This document shows positions 57,373 to 64,000 of a DNA stretch of 64,000 nucleotides, in pieces. The notes below the pieces were generated by a model. That model did no database searches and was not told the origin of the DNA. It saw nothing but the letters and a program-made list of their open reading frames with translations. The position numbers and the translations under genes are program-made. The stretch's first letter is position 1; the number at the start of each line of letters is the position of its first letter. The stretch comes from Microbacterium kyungheense (lineage in GTDB: Bacteria; Actinomycetota; Actinomycetes; Actinomycetales; Microbacteriaceae): contig NZ_VFPE01000002.1 in NCBI RefSeq assembly GCF_006783905.1, forward strand, positions 620,001-684,000. The letters are read 5' to 3'.

Positions 57373-57472
57373 CGTGTCACCAGGTGTTCGCGGATTGCTG
57401 AGAGTTTCCTCATCGTCGACCTCTTGTCGCGGGCGGCCCGCGCGTGGTGTGATCCTCGCCATGGGAGAACAC

Positions 57473-59308
57473 ATGCCTGACCACGCATCCGACGACCTCA
57501 CCCCGCTCACGGATGACCCACCGCGGTCCGGCATCAGCCGCCGCACCCTGCTCGTCGGCGCCTCGGCGGCGAGCGTGCTCGCGGCCGCCGGCTGGGGAGC
57601 CGCCCCGAAGGCGGTCGCCGCGCCGGGCGAGAAGGTCGTCAAGATCGCGATCATGGGCACGTCCGACATCCACTCGAACGCGCTCAACTGGGACTACTAC
57701 AAGGACGCCGCTTACACCGACAGCGCGAAGAACTCGATCGGCCTGGCCCGCGTGTCGAGCCTGGTCAACCAGGTGCGCGCCGACGTCGGCCGCGAGCGCA
57801 CCCTGCTGTTCGACGCGGGCGACACGATCCAGGGAACGCCCCTCGGGTTCTACTACGCGACGGTCGAGCCGGTGACGACCACCGGCGCGATCCACCCGAT
57901 GGCGGCGCAGTTCAACGCGATCGGCTACGACGCCGTCGCGCTCGGCAACCACGAGTTCAACTACGGGCTCGACTTCCTCGACAACTGGATCTCGCAGCTG
58001 GACGCTCCGGCGCTGGCGGCGAACGCCGTGTACGCGGGCACGACGGTGCCGCGATTCGAGCCGTTCGTCATCAAGAACATGCACGCGGGTCCCGGGCTGC
58101 CCGCGATCCGCGTCGGCGTCCTCGGCCTCACCAACCCCGGTGTCGTCATCTGGGACAAGGCGAACGTCAGCGGCCGCGTGGACGTGCTCGACGTCGTCGA
58201 GACGGCGGCGCGCTGGGTGCCGGTGATGCGCCGCCGCGGCGTCGACGTGATCGTGGTGAGCGTGCACGCCGGCGACAGCGGCCTGTCGTCGTACGGGAGC
58301 GATCTGCCCGTCGAGAACGCGGCCGGGCTCCTGGCCGAGCAGGTGCCGGACATCGATGTGATCCTGTTCGGACACGCGCATCTGGACAAGCCCGAGGTCT
58401 TCGTCACGAACACGCAGACGGGTCAGCAGGTGGTCATGAGCGAGCCGGCCAAATGGGGGCAGCGGCTCAGCGTCTTCGATCTCGACCTCGCGTTCTCGCG
58501 GGGGACGTGGAAGGTGGTCTCGAAGTCCGCCCACTCCGTCAACGCGAACACGGTCGAGGACGACCCCGCGCTGGTGGCGGTCGTGAAGGCGCAGCACGAC
58601 GCGGTCGTCGCCTACGTGAACACCGCGGTCGCGACCTCCACCGAGGTGCTCTCGGCGGCGGAGTCGTGCTGGAAGGACACCGCGATCCTCGACTACGTGA
58701 ACCACGTGCAGGTCGAGACCGTCACGCAGGCGATCGCGGGCACGCCCGAGGCATCCCTCCCGGTCATCTCGATCGCGGCGCCCTTCAACCGCGCGGCCAC
58801 CTTCCCGGCCGGCCAGGTGACGATCAAGGATGTGGCCGGGCTCTACATCTACGACAACACGCTCATGGCCTCCGTCCTCACCGGCGCGCAGATCAAGGAC
58901 TACCTCGAGTACTCGGCGAAGTACTTCCAGAAGGTCGCGCCCGATGCGCCGGTCGTGCCCGAGACGTGGACGAACGCGCTGAACACGCCCGACTACAACT
59001 ACGACCAGTTCTCGGGTGTGACCTACGACGTCGACATCTCACAGGATCAGGGATTCCGCATCCTGAACCTCGCCTACGGAGGCGTCGCCGTGGCGCCCGA
59101 CCAGCAGTTCGTCGTCGCGGTCAACAACTACCGCCAGTCCGGCGGCGGCGGGTTCCCGCACATCGCCACGGCACCGGTCGTGTACAACGCTCAGGTCGCG
59201 ATCCGCGAGGCGATCGTCGCGTTCGCGTCGGCGGCGGGCGAGATCGACCCGGCCGACTTCCACGTCGTGAACTGGCAGCTGGTGCGGGCGGGCACGCCGG
59301 TCTTCTAG
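57473..59308 (+). CDS. secreted bifunctional metallophosphatase/5'-nucleotidase (UshA/CpdB-like)
   Basis: A 611-residue protein with a Tat-type signal (SGISRRTLLVGASAASVLAA). The metallophosphatase domain shows GTSDIHSNALNW, LLFDAGDTIQGT, LGNHEFNYGLDFL and FGHAHLDKP; the C-terminal nucleotide-binding domain carries VTIKDVAGLYIYDNTLMA and the FPHIATAPVVYN-like stacking region. It probably degrades extracellular nucleotides or cyclic phosphates to recover phosphate and nucleosides. I chose ATG 57473 because GGGAGA precedes it; ATG 57461 lies in frame too. Its stop TAG shares CTAG with the stop of the convergent regulator gene. Confidence 0.88.
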   Translation: MPDHASDDLTPLTDDPPRSGISRRTLLVGASAASVLAAAGWGAAPKAVAAPGEKVVKIAIMGTSDIHSNALNWDYYKDAAYTDSAKNSIGLARVSSLVNQVRADVGRERTLLFDAGDTIQGTPLGFYYATVEPVTTTGAIHPMAAQFNAIGYDAVALGNHEFNYGLDFLDNWISQLDAPALAANAVYAGTTVPRFEPFVIKNMHAGPGLPAIRVGVLGLTNPGVVIWDKANVSGRVDVLDVVETAARWVPVMRRRGVDVIVVSVHAGDSGLSSYGSDLPVENAAGLLAEQVPDIDVILFGHAHLDKPEVFVTNTQTGQQVVMSEPAKWGQRLSVFDLDLAFSRGTWKVVSKSAHSVNANTVEDDPALVAVVKAQHDAVVAYVNTAVATSTEVLSAAESCWKDTAILDYVNHVQVETVTQAIAGTPEASLPVISIAAPFNRAATFPAGQVTIKDVAGLYIYDNTLMASVLTGAQIKDYLEYSAKYFQKVAPDAPVVPETWTNALNTPDYNYDQFSGVTYDVDISQDQGFRILNLAYGGVAVAPDQQFVVAVNNYRQSGGGGFPHIATAPVVYNAQVAIREAIVAFASAAGEIDPADFHVVNWQLVRAGTPVF

Positions 59309-62300
59309 CCGGTCGCCAGGGGAGCGAGCACGCCCTCACAGAGCGGGTGCTGCGCGCCCAGATCGCCGAGGTGCGTCTGCCACTCGTCGGCCGTGGGTTC
59401 ACGGCCGGCGAGCCGGCAGGCGGCCCCCAGCTGCGCATCCGGCGACAGACGCCACACGATCACCCCGTCCCTGCCGGCCAGCGCCAACGCCGAACCGTCG
59501 CCCGCCAGCGAGGACCTGCCCGGCCCCGGCGTGGCGAGCCGATCGCCCAGCGCGAGTCCGCCGACGTTGTCGTACAGCGCCGCGATACCGGGACCCTGGT
59601 TGAAGAACAGGATCGTCCGGGCGTCGTGGGACGCCGAATAGGCGAGGATCCCTCCGATCGAAATGGGAACGCCGCTGAGCCGGGCGAAGTCCTCGTCGAA
59701 CCGGCTCACGCTCTGCAGATTCGACGCGATGATCTCGCCGTCCGGAAGTGCGATCGATGAGACATATGTGGCCAGCCCCGTGTCGCGGAGGGCGCCGGAG
59801 GCCGCGTCGTAGACGCTCGTCTCGGCCTGGCTCTGCGCGTCGGAGATGTACGTGACGACGATGCGTTCGCCGTCGGCCGTGTCACCGGCCGTGAGGATCC
59901 AGTCTGGCGCGTGGACGGGTGGACCGACGGGTGCGAGCGTGGCCACGTCGATCGGCACCACATCGTTGTCGGGCCGGAGCACCGCCAGGAGCCGGCCGTC
60001 GACCGCGGAGGGGAAGACATCCTGCGTCTCGGGTGGCAGCTGGTGCGGGACGAAGCGGCCGGTGGCGACATCGATGACGTGTGGGGTGAAGTGCTCGACG
60101 TCGTCGGCGTCGACGACGGACGACCACGTGAGCACGTGCTCGTCGCCGAGCCATCTCAGACCCACCAGCACACCTTCATAGGGATCGATGATGTCATCGG
60201 GGATGCGCAGCAGAGGCTGATCCGTCGCGACATCCCAGACCGCGAACGCCGGCGGGGTCGCCTCATCGGTCCAGTTGCGCAGCGCCTCGACGAGGATCCG
60301 CTTCCCGTCTTCGTCCAGCCCCCCGTCCGGGGTGTAGCCCTGGGCGATCAGCCGGCTCGACGGTCCCGCTCCGTCGAGACGGAGATGTCCGACCGCGGGG
60401 GCGATCGCGCTCAGCAGCAGGAGCTCGTGCCCGCCGTCCACGAAGGCGAGGTCGCCGGAACCGCCGAGCTGATACGACGTCGGCGCGAGGACGCGCTCGC
60501 CCGTCGACAGGCGCCACGCCTGCACGGTGCCGGTCTCGTCGCCGCACGCCACGACGTCGCTGAGCGACGACGCCGCCAGGCGCGTGCATTCGTCCGGGCG
60601 TTCGTCCGGGCGATGCCAGAGCTCGGTGCCGGCGGCATCCCAGACCGACACGCCCGACGCGCCCATCGACGCGACGAGCCCGCCGGCGGTGACGACCACC
60701 GCCCATCCGACGAAGCCGGGACGACCCGGAAAGCTGGACTGCACCGTCATCGCGGCGGGGTCGACGACGTCGATGACGCCGTCGGCGGTGCCGACGATGA
60801 CGCGGCCGTCGGGGAGGAAAGCCGAAGTCGCCAGCGTTCCCTCGTCGACATCCCCCGTGGCGAGCCCGGCGAGCGTGCGCACGGCCCCCGTGTCGCGATC
60901 GACGACGGCGAGCGTCCCCGGCGTGGCCCAGGTCGCGTACCGGCCGTCAGCGGTCAGCGTGAACATCTCGCTGCGGACGTCCACCGGGATGGGCGCGCCG
61001 TGCGGGCGGCCCGTGGCGGTGTCGAAGAAGTGCATCACCTCTTCGTCGTCGTCGACGAGGCCGAGGTCGTTCCTGCGGTGCTGCAGCACGGCGATCGTCG
61101 AGCCGTCCGCGCTCACGCGCACCCAGGGGCGCACCACGTCGTCGCTCGCCACCAGGTCGTCGGTGATGCGGCGCTTGACCGTGCCGGACGTGCCGTCATA
61201 CACGCTGAGCGTGGTGCCGCGCGCCACGGCGAGTTCGTCGGTGCCGGGGATGGGGGCGATCCCGGCGCGCCAGTCGATCCCATCCAGATACGTGATCCCC
61301 GTGACGGCGCCGGCACCGGTCAGCGTGCTCATCAGCGCGGCACGGCTGCGCACGTCGTCGGGCCAGCGGCGGGCGGCGGCGACCGCCATGAGCGCCGCGA
61401 TGTCGCGGTTGGTGGGTCGCAGCGAGACCGACCGGGCCGTGACCGCCTCGATCAGGCGGTCCTCGGCGGACGCCGCCGCGTCTGCTGCCGACGTGGCCGC
61501 CTCGCGGCCGCGCACCGCGGCGACGCCGCCTGACACGAGCGCGACGATCAGCAGGACGGCGGCGCCCGCGAGGGCTCCGCGCAGCCGGCGGTTGCTGCGT
61601 GCCTCGTGCGCGGCCTGGTCGGCCAGAGCGCGCATCTCGTTCTGCTCGCGCGCGGTCGAGGCCTCGACGAGCGCGCGTTCGGACTCGGTGAGATCAGGAT
61701 GGGATGCCTCGACCCACTCGACCGCGGCCTGCAGGCGCGCACCGCGCAGCAGATCCTCATCGCGTCGTCCGTCGGAGTCCCACACTTCGGCGGTCGTGGC
61801 GACCAGGGCCATCACGCGCGCGTTCGCGGCGTCCCGCTCGAGCCACCCGTCCAGCCGCGGCCAGGCGCCTGCGACGGCTTCGTGCGCGACCATGACGCGG
61901 TCGCCGTCGACCGTGAGCAGGCGCGCCGCGACGAGCCGGTCGAGCACCCGCCGACGGGTCGGGTCGGCGATCAGCGGCTCGAGGTGTGCGATGCGGCGCA
62001 CCGATGCGCCGTCCGGCCCGCGCTGCACGAGCCGCAGCATCAGCGCGCGGCAGGCGTCGGCCTCGTCCGGCTCGAACGAGCGGTAGAGCGTCTCAGCCGA
62101 CTGTGCGATGGCGCCGGCGATCCCGCCTGACGCCTCGTAACCGGCCACCGTGAGGGTCGCGCCCTCGCGGCGCAGCCACGTCTCGACCAGGGCGTGCGAG
62201 ACATGGGGGAGCGTCGCACGCCGATCGCCGGCATCCCTCATGATCACTTCGACCAGCCCCGGTTCCAGCCGCAGCCCGGCGCGAGCAGCGGGCCGCTCGA

Positions 62301-63552
62301 TGGCCGCGCGAAGGCCCTCGACCGAGAGCGGCCCGAGGGCGTACACCCCGCCGCCGACGGCCGCGCCGATGCGGGGGAGGCCGGTGGCCCGATCGAGGAA
62401 GTCGCTGCGGAGGGTCATCAGCACGGTCGCGCCGCCGGCGAGCGCGTCGGCGACGATGGCGCACAACTCGTCGCGCTCCGGCGGGTCGAGCTGGAACACC
62501 GCCTCGGACTGGTCGATGACGATCACGTCCGCGACGCCGCGCCTCGACATCCGCGCCCGCAGCTCGACCGCGGTGTCGCGGCCCGCCGCCACGACGGCGA
62601 GGCGTCGTCCCTCTGCGATGCGGGGGACGACGCCCGCGAGGACGAGCGACGACTTGCCCGAGCCGGACGCGCCCACGACGGTGGTCAGCGAGCCGGGCCG
62701 CGCGCGGTCGCGGATCGCGGCGATGTCGGACTCGCGGCCGAAGAACTCATCCGCGTCGGCGGACGAGAACGCCGACAGCCCGCGATACGGGCAGCTGTCA
62801 CTGACCCGGTGCAGTGTCCGCACCGCCGCGAGCGCCGGATCCTGCTGCAGCATCGCAGCCTCCAGCGTCCGCAGGCGTTCGCCGAGGTCGATCCCCAGCT
62901 CGTCCGCCAGCCGCTCGCGCGCGGCGCGCACGGTCGCCAGCGCCTCGGCCTGACGCCCGGCCCGGTAGTTGGCCATCGCGAGGACGGCCCAGCGGTTCTC
63001 ACGCAGCGGGCGCGCCCTCACGAGGCGCTCGGCGTCGGCGATGACGGCGCGGTGCTCGCCATCGGCCAACCGTGCCTCGAGCAGCTCCTCCTCCGCGCTG
63101 TCGCGGATCTCGGCGAGCCGTTCCGACTCGACGGCTGCCGGCTCCCAGTCGGCGAGCTCGGGGTACGGCCGCCCCCGCCACAGCGCCAGCGCACGACGGT
63201 ACGCGTCGATCGCGCGGTCGTGCTCCTCGTGGAGCGACTGCAGCCGGGCGGCGGACACGAGCCGCTCGAACTCGAACGCGTCGATCGTCGCGGGGTCGAT
63301 TCCGAGCGCGTACTCCGATCCCCGGGTGACCACTGCCGCCGCTCCGAGGCCGGAGCGGATGCGGGCGACCGAGGTCTTCACCTGCTGAGGCCAGGTGCGC
63401 GGCGGAGCCTCGCCCCAGTACGCCTCGGCGAGCTCGCCGGGCGCGACGGCGCGTCCCGCGCACACGATCAGTGCGGCGAGCACCGCCCGCTCCCGCGGGC
63501 TCAGGGCGTGCTCGTTCCCCGTATCGAGCGGCCCCAGCACCCTGATGGCCAT
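59305..63552 (-). CDS. SARP (BTAD)-nSTAND NTPase-membrane-beta-propeller regulator
   Basis: A 1,415-residue fusion. Residues 1-95 form an OmpR-like winged helix and 96-245 the bacterial transcriptional activation domain (BTAD) of SARP regulators (RALALWRGRPYPELADWEPA; LADELGIDLGERLRTLEAAM). Residues about 255-640 form an nSTAND NTPase: CPYRGLSAFSSADADEFFGR, Walker [10 protein letters not shown] at 294-302, Walker B VIVIDQSE with Asp347. A single membrane segment follows (GALAGAAVLLIVALVSGGVA), then a coiled linker and 600 residues of WD40-type beta-propeller repeats. The propeller would lie outside the cell and the DNA-binding part inside, making this a membrane-bound one-component sensor. 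It is divergent from a mini-peptide gene and faces heptamer repeats. No Shine-Dalgarno precedes ATG 63552. Confidence 0.9.
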   Translation of the reverse strand: MAIRVLGPLDTGNEHALSPRERAVLAALIVCAGRAVAPGELAEAYWGEAPPRTWPQQVKTSVARIRSGLGAAAVVTRGSEYALGIDPATIDAFEFERLVSAARLQSLHEEHDRAIDAYRRALALWRGRPYPELADWEPAAVESERLAEIRDSAEEELLEARLADGEHRAVIADAERLVRARPLRENRWAVLAMANYRAGRQAEALATVRAARERLADELGIDLGERLRTLEAAMLQQDPALAAVRTLHRVSDSCPYRGLSAFSSADADEFFGRESDIAAIRDRARPGSLTTVVGASGSGKSSLVLAGVVPRIAEGRRLAVVAAGRDTAVELRARMSRRGVADVIVIDQSEAVFQLDPPERDELCAIVADALAGGATVLMTLRSDFLDRATGLPRIGAAVGGGVYALGPLSVEGLRAAIERPAARAGLRLEPGLVEVIMRDAGDRRATLPHVSHALVETWLRREGATLTVAGYEASGGIAGAIAQSAETLYRSFEPDEADACRALMLRLVQRGPDGASVRRIAHLEPLIADPTRRRVLDRLVAARLLTVDGDRVMVAHEAVAGAWPRLDGWLERDAANARVMALVATTAEVWDSDGRRDEDLLRGARLQAAVEWVEASHPDLTESERALVEASTAREQNEMRALADQAAHEARSNRRLRGALAGAAVLLIVALVSGGVAAVRGREAATSAADAAASAEDRLIEAVTARSVSLRPTNRDIAALMAVAAARRWPDDVRSRAALMSTLTGAGAVTGITYLDGIDWRAGIAPIPGTDELAVARGTTLSVYDGTSGTVKRRITDDLVASDDVVRPWVRVSADGSTIAVLQHRRNDLGLVDDDEEVMHFFDTATGRPHGAPIPVDVRSEMFTLTADGRYATWATPGTLAVVDRDTGAVRTLAGLATGDVDEGTLATSAFLPDGRVIVGTADGVIDVVDPAAMTVQSSFPGRPGFVGWAVVVTAGGLVASMGASGVSVWDAAGTELWHRPDERPDECTRLAASSLSDVVACGDETGTVQAWRLSTGERVLAPTSYQLGGSGDLAFVDGGHELLLLSAIAPAVGHLRLDGAGPSSRLIAQGYTPDGGLDEDGKRILVEALRNWTDEATPPAFAVWDVATDQPLLRIPDDIIDPYEGVLVGLRWLGDEHVLTWSSVVDADDVEHFTPHVIDVATGRFVPHQLPPETQDVFPSAVDGRLLAVLRPDNDVVPIDVATLAPVGPPVHAPDWILTAGDTADGERIVVTYISDAQSQAETSVYDAASGALRDTGLATYVSSIALPDGEIIASNLQSVSRFDEDFARLSGVPISIGGILAYSASHDARTILFFNQGPGIAALYDNVGGLALGDRLATPGPGRSSLAGDGSALALAGRDGVIVWRLSPDAQLGAACRLAGREPTADEWQTHLGDLGAQHPLCEGVLAPLATG

Positions 63553-63604
63553 GCAGAAAGTGTGGGATGCCCCGGGCGCTGCGTCAACGGGCGCACCCGG
63601 CGAC

Positions 63605-63644
63605 GAGTACCGGATGAGTACCGCGGGGTCCGCGGACGGATACC
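63605..63644. promoter_or_regulatory. heptamer direct repeats at 11-bp spacing, candidate SARP operator
   Basis: GAGTACC at 63605-63611 and 63616-63622 and GGATACC at 63638-63644 lie in register at multiples of 11 bp (the 63627 position is degenerate). SARP activators bind heptamer direct repeats with 11-bp spacing. The block sits between the SARP-nSTAND gene and the divergent mini-peptide gene. Confidence 0.5.
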
Positions 63645-63711
63645 GGCGCCGGCGAACCTCGGATCACGGCATCGCGGAGGGGCCGCTGCCGTCCAGGGAA
63701 AGGAAGCCATC

Positions 63712-63870
63712 ATGAACGCCACCACGACAATGCGCCGCGCGGGGCTCGCCGTCATCGGAGCGGTCGTCGCCACGGTGCTCGCGGCGGCCGCGATCACGGC
63801 CTCGGCCGTCTCGGGCGACGGCGGCGGCCACGGCGGCGGCTCGGCCCGCTCGTCGATGCTGTTCCGCTGA
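63712..63870 (+). CDS. tiny secreted Gly/His peptide
   Basis: A 52-residue protein starting at ATG 63712 behind a strong RBS (GGGAAAGGAAG). The N-terminus has a basic MRR and a long hydrophobic core (AGLAVIGAVVATVLAAAAI) with a likely cleavage site after ASA, leaving about 20 residues: VSGDGGGHGGGSARSSMLFR. The mature peptide is Gly/His/Ser-rich with three C-terminal basic residues. No family is recognised. It is divergent from the SARP-nSTAND regulator, with the repeat array between them, and may be its target. Confidence 0.65.
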   Translation: MNATTTMRRAGLAVIGAVVATVLAAAAITASAVSGDGGGHGGGSARSSMLFR

Positions 63871-63960
63871 CCGGACCCGCGATGTATCACTGCGGACTCC
63901 GGTCCGCTCACCACTGAGCACAACGCCGAGACCCGGCGAACCCGAAGGAAAGGAAAGGCC

Positions 63961-64000
63961 ATGGACGCCACCACCCTGACCCTGGCCGACCGCATCCACC
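63961..64000 (+). CDS. start of the next gene, truncated by window end
   Basis: ATG 63961 follows GAAGGAAAGGAAAGG, a strong ribosome-binding region. Only 13 codons are visible (MDATTLTLADRIH). Its start resembles that of the preceding mini-gene (MNATTT), and the 90-bp gap suggests the same transcript. The identity is unknown. Confidence 0.45.
   Translation, partial: MDATTLTLADRIH

Follow-up and report, generated by a model that had tools for sequence, protein, structure and literature searches.

How might a signal outside a bacterial cell reach DNA through a single protein? This question is raised by a locus of Microbacterium kyungheense in the window analyzed here (64,000 nucleotides; contig NZ_VFPE01000002.1, positions 620,001 to 684,000), in which an open reading frame (ORF) for a 1,415-residue regulator with the DNA-binding part of a Streptomyces antibiotic regulatory protein (SARP) is divergent from a gene of 52 codons. 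SARPs are best known for activating antibiotic genes, and the large ones are described as little studied in the accessible part of a review (PMC10972967). The initial annotation compared the pair to AfsR/afsS, with the sensor placed outside the cell. In this work, we found that the regulator is probably a membrane-spanning receptor and transcription activator in one protein, with an exported target. We also consider it likely that it represents a family of membrane-spanning SARP receptors with dedicated exported targets rather than a single case.

Pfam, hydrophobicity, and structure modeling agree with the annotated order of SARP/BTAD, nSTAND, one membrane helix, and propeller. The nSTAND1 match covers residues 255-598 (309.1 bits, cut-off 27.1; profile positions 1-378 of 379) and that of BTAD residues 90-235 (102.4 bits, cut-off 22.1), and Trans_reg_C at residues 12-71 is slightly below its cut-off (23.4 and 26.2 bits). 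In the Pfam searches, neither a TPR (E <= 1) nor an effector domain was found in the regulator. The propeller half was predicted well (725 amino acids; predicted local distance difference test, pLDDT, 88.8; predicted template modeling score 0.87). Its best fold matches are WD40 domains aligned to the first propeller, such as 5yzv of T. curvata (Z 28.3, root-mean-square deviation, rmsd, 2.9, 280 residues aligned), and the double propeller of Apaf-1 spans both (548 residues, Z 26.9, rmsd 10.7). Because of these two matches, we read the modeled sensor half as two propellers. These fold and family comparisons cover the families in the Foldseek and VIA lists. A STAND protein of defense or conflict, in which the SARP part is a remnant, would share the nSTAND1 domain with sensor repeats and the tandem paralogues with fast-changing sensors; we regard this as highly improbable given the lack of an effector domain, a PADLOC result limited to mad8 (18.4 bits, E 3e-4), and a DNA-binding half that is kept along with matching operators.

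Of 295 genomes of the genus, 26 contain relatives of the N-terminal half (E <= 1e-40), several of them carrying tandem sets of two or three; with three candidates scored per genome, these copy numbers are lower bounds. At 1e-80, profile matches were found in 12/398 genomes of the family and 49/394 of the class (overlapping sets), and most class-level matches cover the nSTAND part only. Among the matches listed in the genome-contig search (mostly nSTAND), the best that reach the SARP part are L131 (44%, residues 3-414) and L120 (35%, residues 5-641). The comparisons below use 51 upstream regions, namely, 40 from the genus and 11 that belong to other genera or families (L202-L207, L209, L210, and L213-L215). 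Rows were dropped for a fragment at a contig end (L099_2), proteins not of the family (L116 and L117), no start found (L112, L114, and L115), a start outside the available locus (L208), no SARP part (L211), late discovery (L275), or distant relationship with neither repeats nor promoter (L216 and L217), as were weaker or unlisted class and family matches. Among 24 full-length proteins, the N-terminal halves are 55% alike on average and the propellers 29%, and the N-terminal half is the more alike in 273 of 276 pairs. A second regulator group (L102-L111, L206, and L209) is approximately 41% identical in the genus and has the operator GATATCA; its divergent genes encode lipoproteins or membrane proteins of 171-244 amino acids in 7/12 rows.

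The placement of the sensor half beyond a membrane helix, as first annotated, is supported by two predicted features: a hydrophobic segment with a basic flank and the cysteines of the propeller half. The most hydrophobic 19-residue stretch of the window's regulator lies at residues 662-680 (Kyte-Doolittle score, KD, 2.41) behind a basic stretch. Among the genus proteins, the top-ranked stretch starts at residues 636-665 in 39 of 40 (the second-ranked in L083), and the 15 residues ahead of the helix carry a net charge of +2 to +6 in those 39; the two SARPs outside the family (L116 and L117) have no comparable stretch at that place. In a longer model, the segment lies within long helices of pLDDT 44-67, which fits a membrane segment because an unpacked helix would give such low values. 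The propeller half has an even number of cysteines (4, 6, or 8) in 24/24 sequences, with C689 and C715 in all of them, both C299 and C313 in 22 (where C313 is missing, in two rows, the cysteines still number six; positions of alignment A2), and a vicinal CC, both or neither in every row, in 15/24. In the N-terminal half, the number is odd in 11/22. These 24 rows are kin, such that they are supportive rather than 24 independent tests. We strongly infer that the propellers lie outside the cell.

Apaf-1 is a cytosolic protein in which an NTPase is followed by a double propeller. If the hydrophobic stretch were not inserted, the regulator could likewise be entirely cytosolic, as AfsR and Apaf-1 are, and its propeller could sense or oligomerize inside the cell. 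The fold match to Apaf-1 and the moderate hydrophobicity of the helix across the family (KD 1.75-2.8) would suit this alternative. Nevertheless, it appears unlikely, as the helix and its basic flank are kept among paralogues with such dissimilar propellers, the even and paired cysteines are confined to the propeller half, and most partner products are exported.

The intergenic region bears out the annotated 11-bp-spaced repeats, with heptamers at 0/11/33 bp between the two genes, and has a promoter arrangement that recurs in the family. A regulator promoter of the form TTGA-N16..18-xACA, or near to it, ends 4-8 nt before the start in 46/51 regions (typically TTGAC[GC]-N17-CACACT-N6-ATG). At this distance, the regulator mRNA should be leaderless, and it probably is. 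Near-identical heptamers (at least 6/7) 11 bp apart are present at -80 to -50 in 41/51 regions, compared with a mean of 2.5 and a maximum of 10 in shuffles and 0-5 regions for other spacings (8-10 and 12-15). Among 20 control SARPs, whose starts were chosen by rule (1/21 had none), four have a heptamer pair and none has the regulator-type promoter. In the direction of the divergent gene, the usual heptamer positions are 0/11/33, with a weak -10 ([GC]ANNNT) 9 bp further on; in the window, the same 9 bp separate the third heptamer from GAACCT. According to the accessible part of PMC10936776, the direct repeats of SARP sites are spaced by 11 or 22 bp, with 8 bp between the final repeat and the -10, and the -10 of afsS is suboptimal (CACTGT). 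The geometry is therefore close to that of SARP and AfsR targets, which supports the AfsR-like promoter logic of the initial annotation. Kinship with AfsR did not hold: the AfsR equivalog model scored 116.8 bits against a cut-off of 1430, over residues 5-300 only, and the regulator has propellers in place of TPR.

The heptamers also match residues in the helix that we take to be the recognition helix. K occurs with GGTAC or GGTATCC (12/12), RN with GATATCC or CATATCC (11/11), Q with GGTATTC (2/2), and P with GATATCA (4/4); among the 11 rows from outside the genus, GGTAC, GGTAT, and GATATC again accompany K, Q, and P, respectively.

By a lenient count made by eye, a divergent small gene is present in 41/51 regions; its product has a lipobox in 22, a signal peptide or membrane helix in 12, and is of the type of the window's 67-amino-acid protein (type B) in 7. 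A strict script for exported-type ORFs gave 30/51, with no hit among the 20 control SARPs and a rate of 1.4% across 3000 random positions. Heptamer pair and divergent gene tend to occur together (both in 38 regions, one only in 3 and 3, neither in 7; p 1e-4). The domains, the heptamers, the promoter geometry, and this conserved divergent gene are evident at the sequence level, and we strongly infer that the regulator activates the divergent gene.

Conservation extends to a divergent gene whose small product is mostly exported, and not to the particular peptide of the window. The 52-amino-acid gene, which might have been expected always to accompany the regulator, belongs to a type that comes first in only 4/51 regions (L003, L082, L084_2, and L085; grouped by layout, not homology), with a hydrophobic helix, a Gly-rich stretch, and, in 3/4, an end like SSMLFR or KYIVR. 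The window's protein has an Arg-rich start, a hydrophobic helix or possible signal peptide (ASA, by eye), and a Gly-rich tail ending in SSMLFR; no Pfam or NCBIfam family matched it above cut-off. A search for its sequence homologues in 58 genomes gave, beyond G028 (79%), a best E of 2.8e-4 and mostly long open frames, which were not used.

A second candidate site, located from the sequence pattern alone, suggests that the module reaches further. The pattern GRGTACC-N4-GRGTACC occurs once exactly in the 4.28 Mb of the window genome and once more at one mismatch; its reversed control also has one site there. The one-mismatch site lies 5.2 kb from the module and has an exact counterpart in G028, with a lipoprotein gene behind it in both genomes (117 amino acids in the window genome and 101 in G028). 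By eye, each site also has a heptamer-like repeat as its third element, with a [CG]ANNNT box whose distance is nearly unchanged. The resemblance to the type-A lipoproteins is one of layout only: homology of the window genome's protein to them was rejected (E 0.025, within the shuffled range), and that of G028 gave E 7e-5, above all shuffles. Exact GAGTACC pairs number nine in 7/12 genomes, namely, eight at modules and the G028 second site, with none in five genomes without the regulator and one for the control pattern (in G132). Exact GGATATC pairs number eight in 7/10 genomes, seven of them at modules and one on contig C181 of G173, with none in G109, G245, and G312.

These patterns also bear on whether the repeats act on the regulator's own promoter, by autorepression or autoactivation, with the small gene as a bystander. 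The proximal pair does lie approximately 17 bp upstream of the regulator -35 as well in most loci. However, the promoter is kept without the pair at L095_2, L096, L107, L108, and L110, the third repeat and the weak -10 are oriented toward the divergent gene, and the remote site copy faces a lipoprotein gene, so that this explanation seems improbable.

In the mechanism that we propose, the regulator would be transcribed from its own SARP-independent promoter into a leaderless mRNA and inserted such that the SARP and nSTAND1 domains face the cytoplasm and a disulfide-bonded double propeller the exterior. When a signal binds the propeller, the nSTAND ATP switch would be altered via the membrane helix; the SARP domains would then occupy the three in-phase heptamers and recruit RNA polymerase to the weak -10 of the divergent gene. 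The output would be a small exported protein, here the 52-amino-acid one, together with the lipoprotein 5.2 kb away via the second site. Most likely, the exported product would act on or with the propeller, in feedback or co-sensing, because it reaches the compartment that the propeller faces. The ATP switching, the signal, and the contact between product and propeller are the most tentative parts of this scheme.

How the product relates to the propeller may be approached through the tails of the exported proteins. An internal tail repeat is present in 14/34 exported first products (shuffles: mean 1.9, maximum 6), and ADR[ILVMA], a motif named after the proteins had been seen, in 12/34 with 20 copies (shuffles: 0.83 proteins); the window's protein has neither. 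In an earlier hand-picked set of 21 proteins (20 first genes and one second gene), repeats and ADR were present in 12 and 13. Each locus could be a receptor-ligand pair, in which the flexible exported tail, with repeats (ADR[ILV], DDLSP, TPADL, or DPRGRHG) or a Gly linker and hydrophobic C-terminal end (SSMLFR, KYIVR, or HFKVR), serves as cognate ligand for the double propeller of the same locus. The cell would then sense the amount, position, or integrity of a surface peptide that it makes itself, and tandem paralogous pairs, each under a separate operator sequence, would diverge from one another at a single place next to ilvC. We hold this doubtful, and very slightly more so since the share with repeats fell from 12/21 picked proteins to 14/34 of all. 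A stronger candidate, though one that we would place somewhat below even chances, is that the small exported proteins are effectors in the envelope, competition, or adhesion that make no contact with the receptor, and that the propeller senses something else. The great diversity of the products, a sub-threshold cupin match (22.6 bits, cut-off 27.2), an L213 ORF, open at the contig end, that by eye resembles the start of a phosphoesterase, and the 20/34 exported products without an internal repeat would all suit such effectors. They are harder to reconcile with the tail repeats of the other 14; none of the scanned products (8 + 6, some incomplete) reaches a family cut-off, and the small size makes an enzyme unlikely.

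Several observations weigh against the interpretation as a membrane-spanning receptor with an exported target. Binding, activation, topology, and the leaderless start are all predictions, and the windows and patterns for the heptamer, promoter, and exported-gene counts were set after the regions had been seen. Ten of the 51 regulators lack a recognized divergent gene and seven of these also lack the repeats; in the seven type-B-first modules, the first product has no export signal. The distant SARP-nSTAND relatives L216 and L217 have neither the promoter nor the repeats, and the G173 site (C181:9037) has no small exported gene behind it. L210 combines Q with GGTATCC, an exception to the residue-heptamer match. 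The RN rows can be one clade (approximately unbiased test, p 0.46), so that the independent events may be few, and independent origins of the match are not supported by the tree. Finally, the regulator adjoins a 5'-nucleotidase gene at L003, L082, and L083 (convergent) and L096 (divergent), such that other targets are possible.

The coordinates of the features in the window are collected in Table 1. On the plus side of the regulator, the order is the 52-amino-acid gene, the 67-amino-acid gene, and cutC; downstream of cutC, we observed a gene (L003:9119-9964) for a protein of three peptidoglycan-binding stretches. On the other side, a 5'-nucleotidase-like metallophosphoesterase (Pfam; 57374..59308, plus strand) has a Tat-like leader by eye, and its stop codon overlaps that of the regulator. 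In G122 (L096), a 72% identical nucleotidase homologue is divergent from the regulator instead. In the close group (L003 and L082-L101), ilvC, a nucleotidase, or cutC lies within the fetched DNA in 13/21 loci.

Table 1. Features of the regulator locus, with positions in the window
Feature	Position	Strand	Remarks
Regulator ORF	59305..63552	-	1415 amino acids; SARP DNA-binding/BTAD 1-235, nSTAND1 NTPase 255-598, membrane helix ~656-681
Regulator, C-terminal part		-	Residues ~750-1370 double propeller, then helical hairpin with invariant Cys pair
Transmembrane segment	61510..61587	-	Residues ~656-681; basic before, neutral after; predicted N-in/C-out
Regulator promoter -10 (CACACT)	63559..63564	-	6 nt 5' of ATG; predicted leaderless
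Regulator promoter -35 (TTGACG)	63582..63587	-
SARP heptamer 1 (GAGTACC)	63605..63611	+
SARP heptamer 2 (GAGTACC)	63616..63622	+	11 bp after heptamer 1
SARP heptamer 3 (GGATACC)	63638..63644	+	22 bp after heptamer 2
Weak -10 (GAACCT) of the 52-amino-acid gene	63654..63659	+	9 bp past heptamer 3
52-amino-acid mini-protein gene	63712..63870	+	Divergent from regulator
67-amino-acid type-B gene	63961..	+	Runs 164 bases beyond the window, to L003:8164

The 67-amino-acid protein is charged, has no hydrophobic segment by eye, and carries ADR motifs. The idea that this following gene always accompanies the regulator was rejected, as type B is found in 17/26 regulator genomes and 24/269 others (E <= 0.01, weak and unlinked matches included) and lies at the same chromosomal place without the regulator in L270, L272-L274, L276, L278, and L279. 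L098_1 and L101 each have a fusion of the type-B N-terminus with a membrane helix and tail of the 52-amino-acid type, which suggests joint action of the window's two small proteins. A type-B profile built without these two still finds both (41 bits; shuffles up to 6.3), and each of the 12 type-B rows outscores all 200 of its own shuffles. By eye, a motif GTATCA...CTCA lies ahead of the 67-amino-acid gene (63871..63960) and of the genes of the seven loci named above, and is probably a second promoter. Another type-B group (L280-L285) has the upstream motif CTTAG..GAG...CCTGTCAGCA by eye and no such regulator in the fetched DNA. In the fetched DNA of L269 and L271, a type-B gene is accompanied by what by eye look like heptamer remnants but by no regulator, which may reflect receptor loss.

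Known domains stand here in a layout that is real and conserved and appears undescribed, and its operator and target can be predicted with unusual clarity. Among the papers listed from the literature searched, none was seen to describe a SARP with a membrane helix or propeller, which, with most subscription journals and preprints outside the scope, is weak evidence of absence. The accessible parts of PMC2751784, PMC10907252, and PMC10663231 concern subjects different from this layout, and "WD40," "transmembrane," and "membrane" do not occur in the text of the SARP review (PMC10972967). If the proposed reading is correct, a SARP would receive its signal outside the cell and pass it through a STAND switch to DNA without a kinase. 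Each regulator has a predicted operator and a nearby target, and input, switch, operator, and output are testable at one 5-kb locus. If the tails were ligands of the propellers, the family would be an unusual case of a bacterial receptor for self-surveillance, one whose diversity arises by tandem duplication.

Among bacterial nSTAND proteins, those with WD40 propellers are common, and nSTAND relatives are plentiful here. The former share the order of nSTAND1 and propellers, whereas the regulator has in addition a SARP activator at its N-terminus, with an operator and target of its own. Large SARPs and SARP-LALs likewise join a SARP to a large regulatory C-terminus, but the types listed in the accessible part of the review are NB-ARC/TPR and LAL (PMC10972967). 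The Streptomyces AfsR/afsS system (SARP-NOD-TPR) resembles the module in its SARP and STAND-type ATPase, its small neighboring target, and its repeats at 11/22-bp spacing that directly precede a weak -10 (PMC10936776, in part); AfsS carries three short repeats (PMC2267785, in part), and some exported products here have two or three. In contrast, one membrane helix and a double propeller stand here where AfsR has TPR, the target is divergent and exported, and a kinase is not evidenced. By prediction, the regulator has the layout of ToxR/ToxS, VtrA/VtrC, and CadC, namely, a cytoplasmic DNA-binding domain, one membrane helix, and an extracytoplasmic sensor, and it resembles them in a small extracytoplasmic companion and a fast-evolving sensor half (PMC9214523, in part); the intramolecular disulfide of CadC is a known analogue (PMC3096576, in part). 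It differs from them in the NTPase between DNA binding and membrane, the double propeller as sensor, and its actinobacterial host. Furthermore, the partner in co-component systems is encoded in the operon of the regulator, whereas the companion genes here are divergent. In logic, the promoter comes closest to AfsR and the signal path to the membrane activators of the ToxR/VtrA type.

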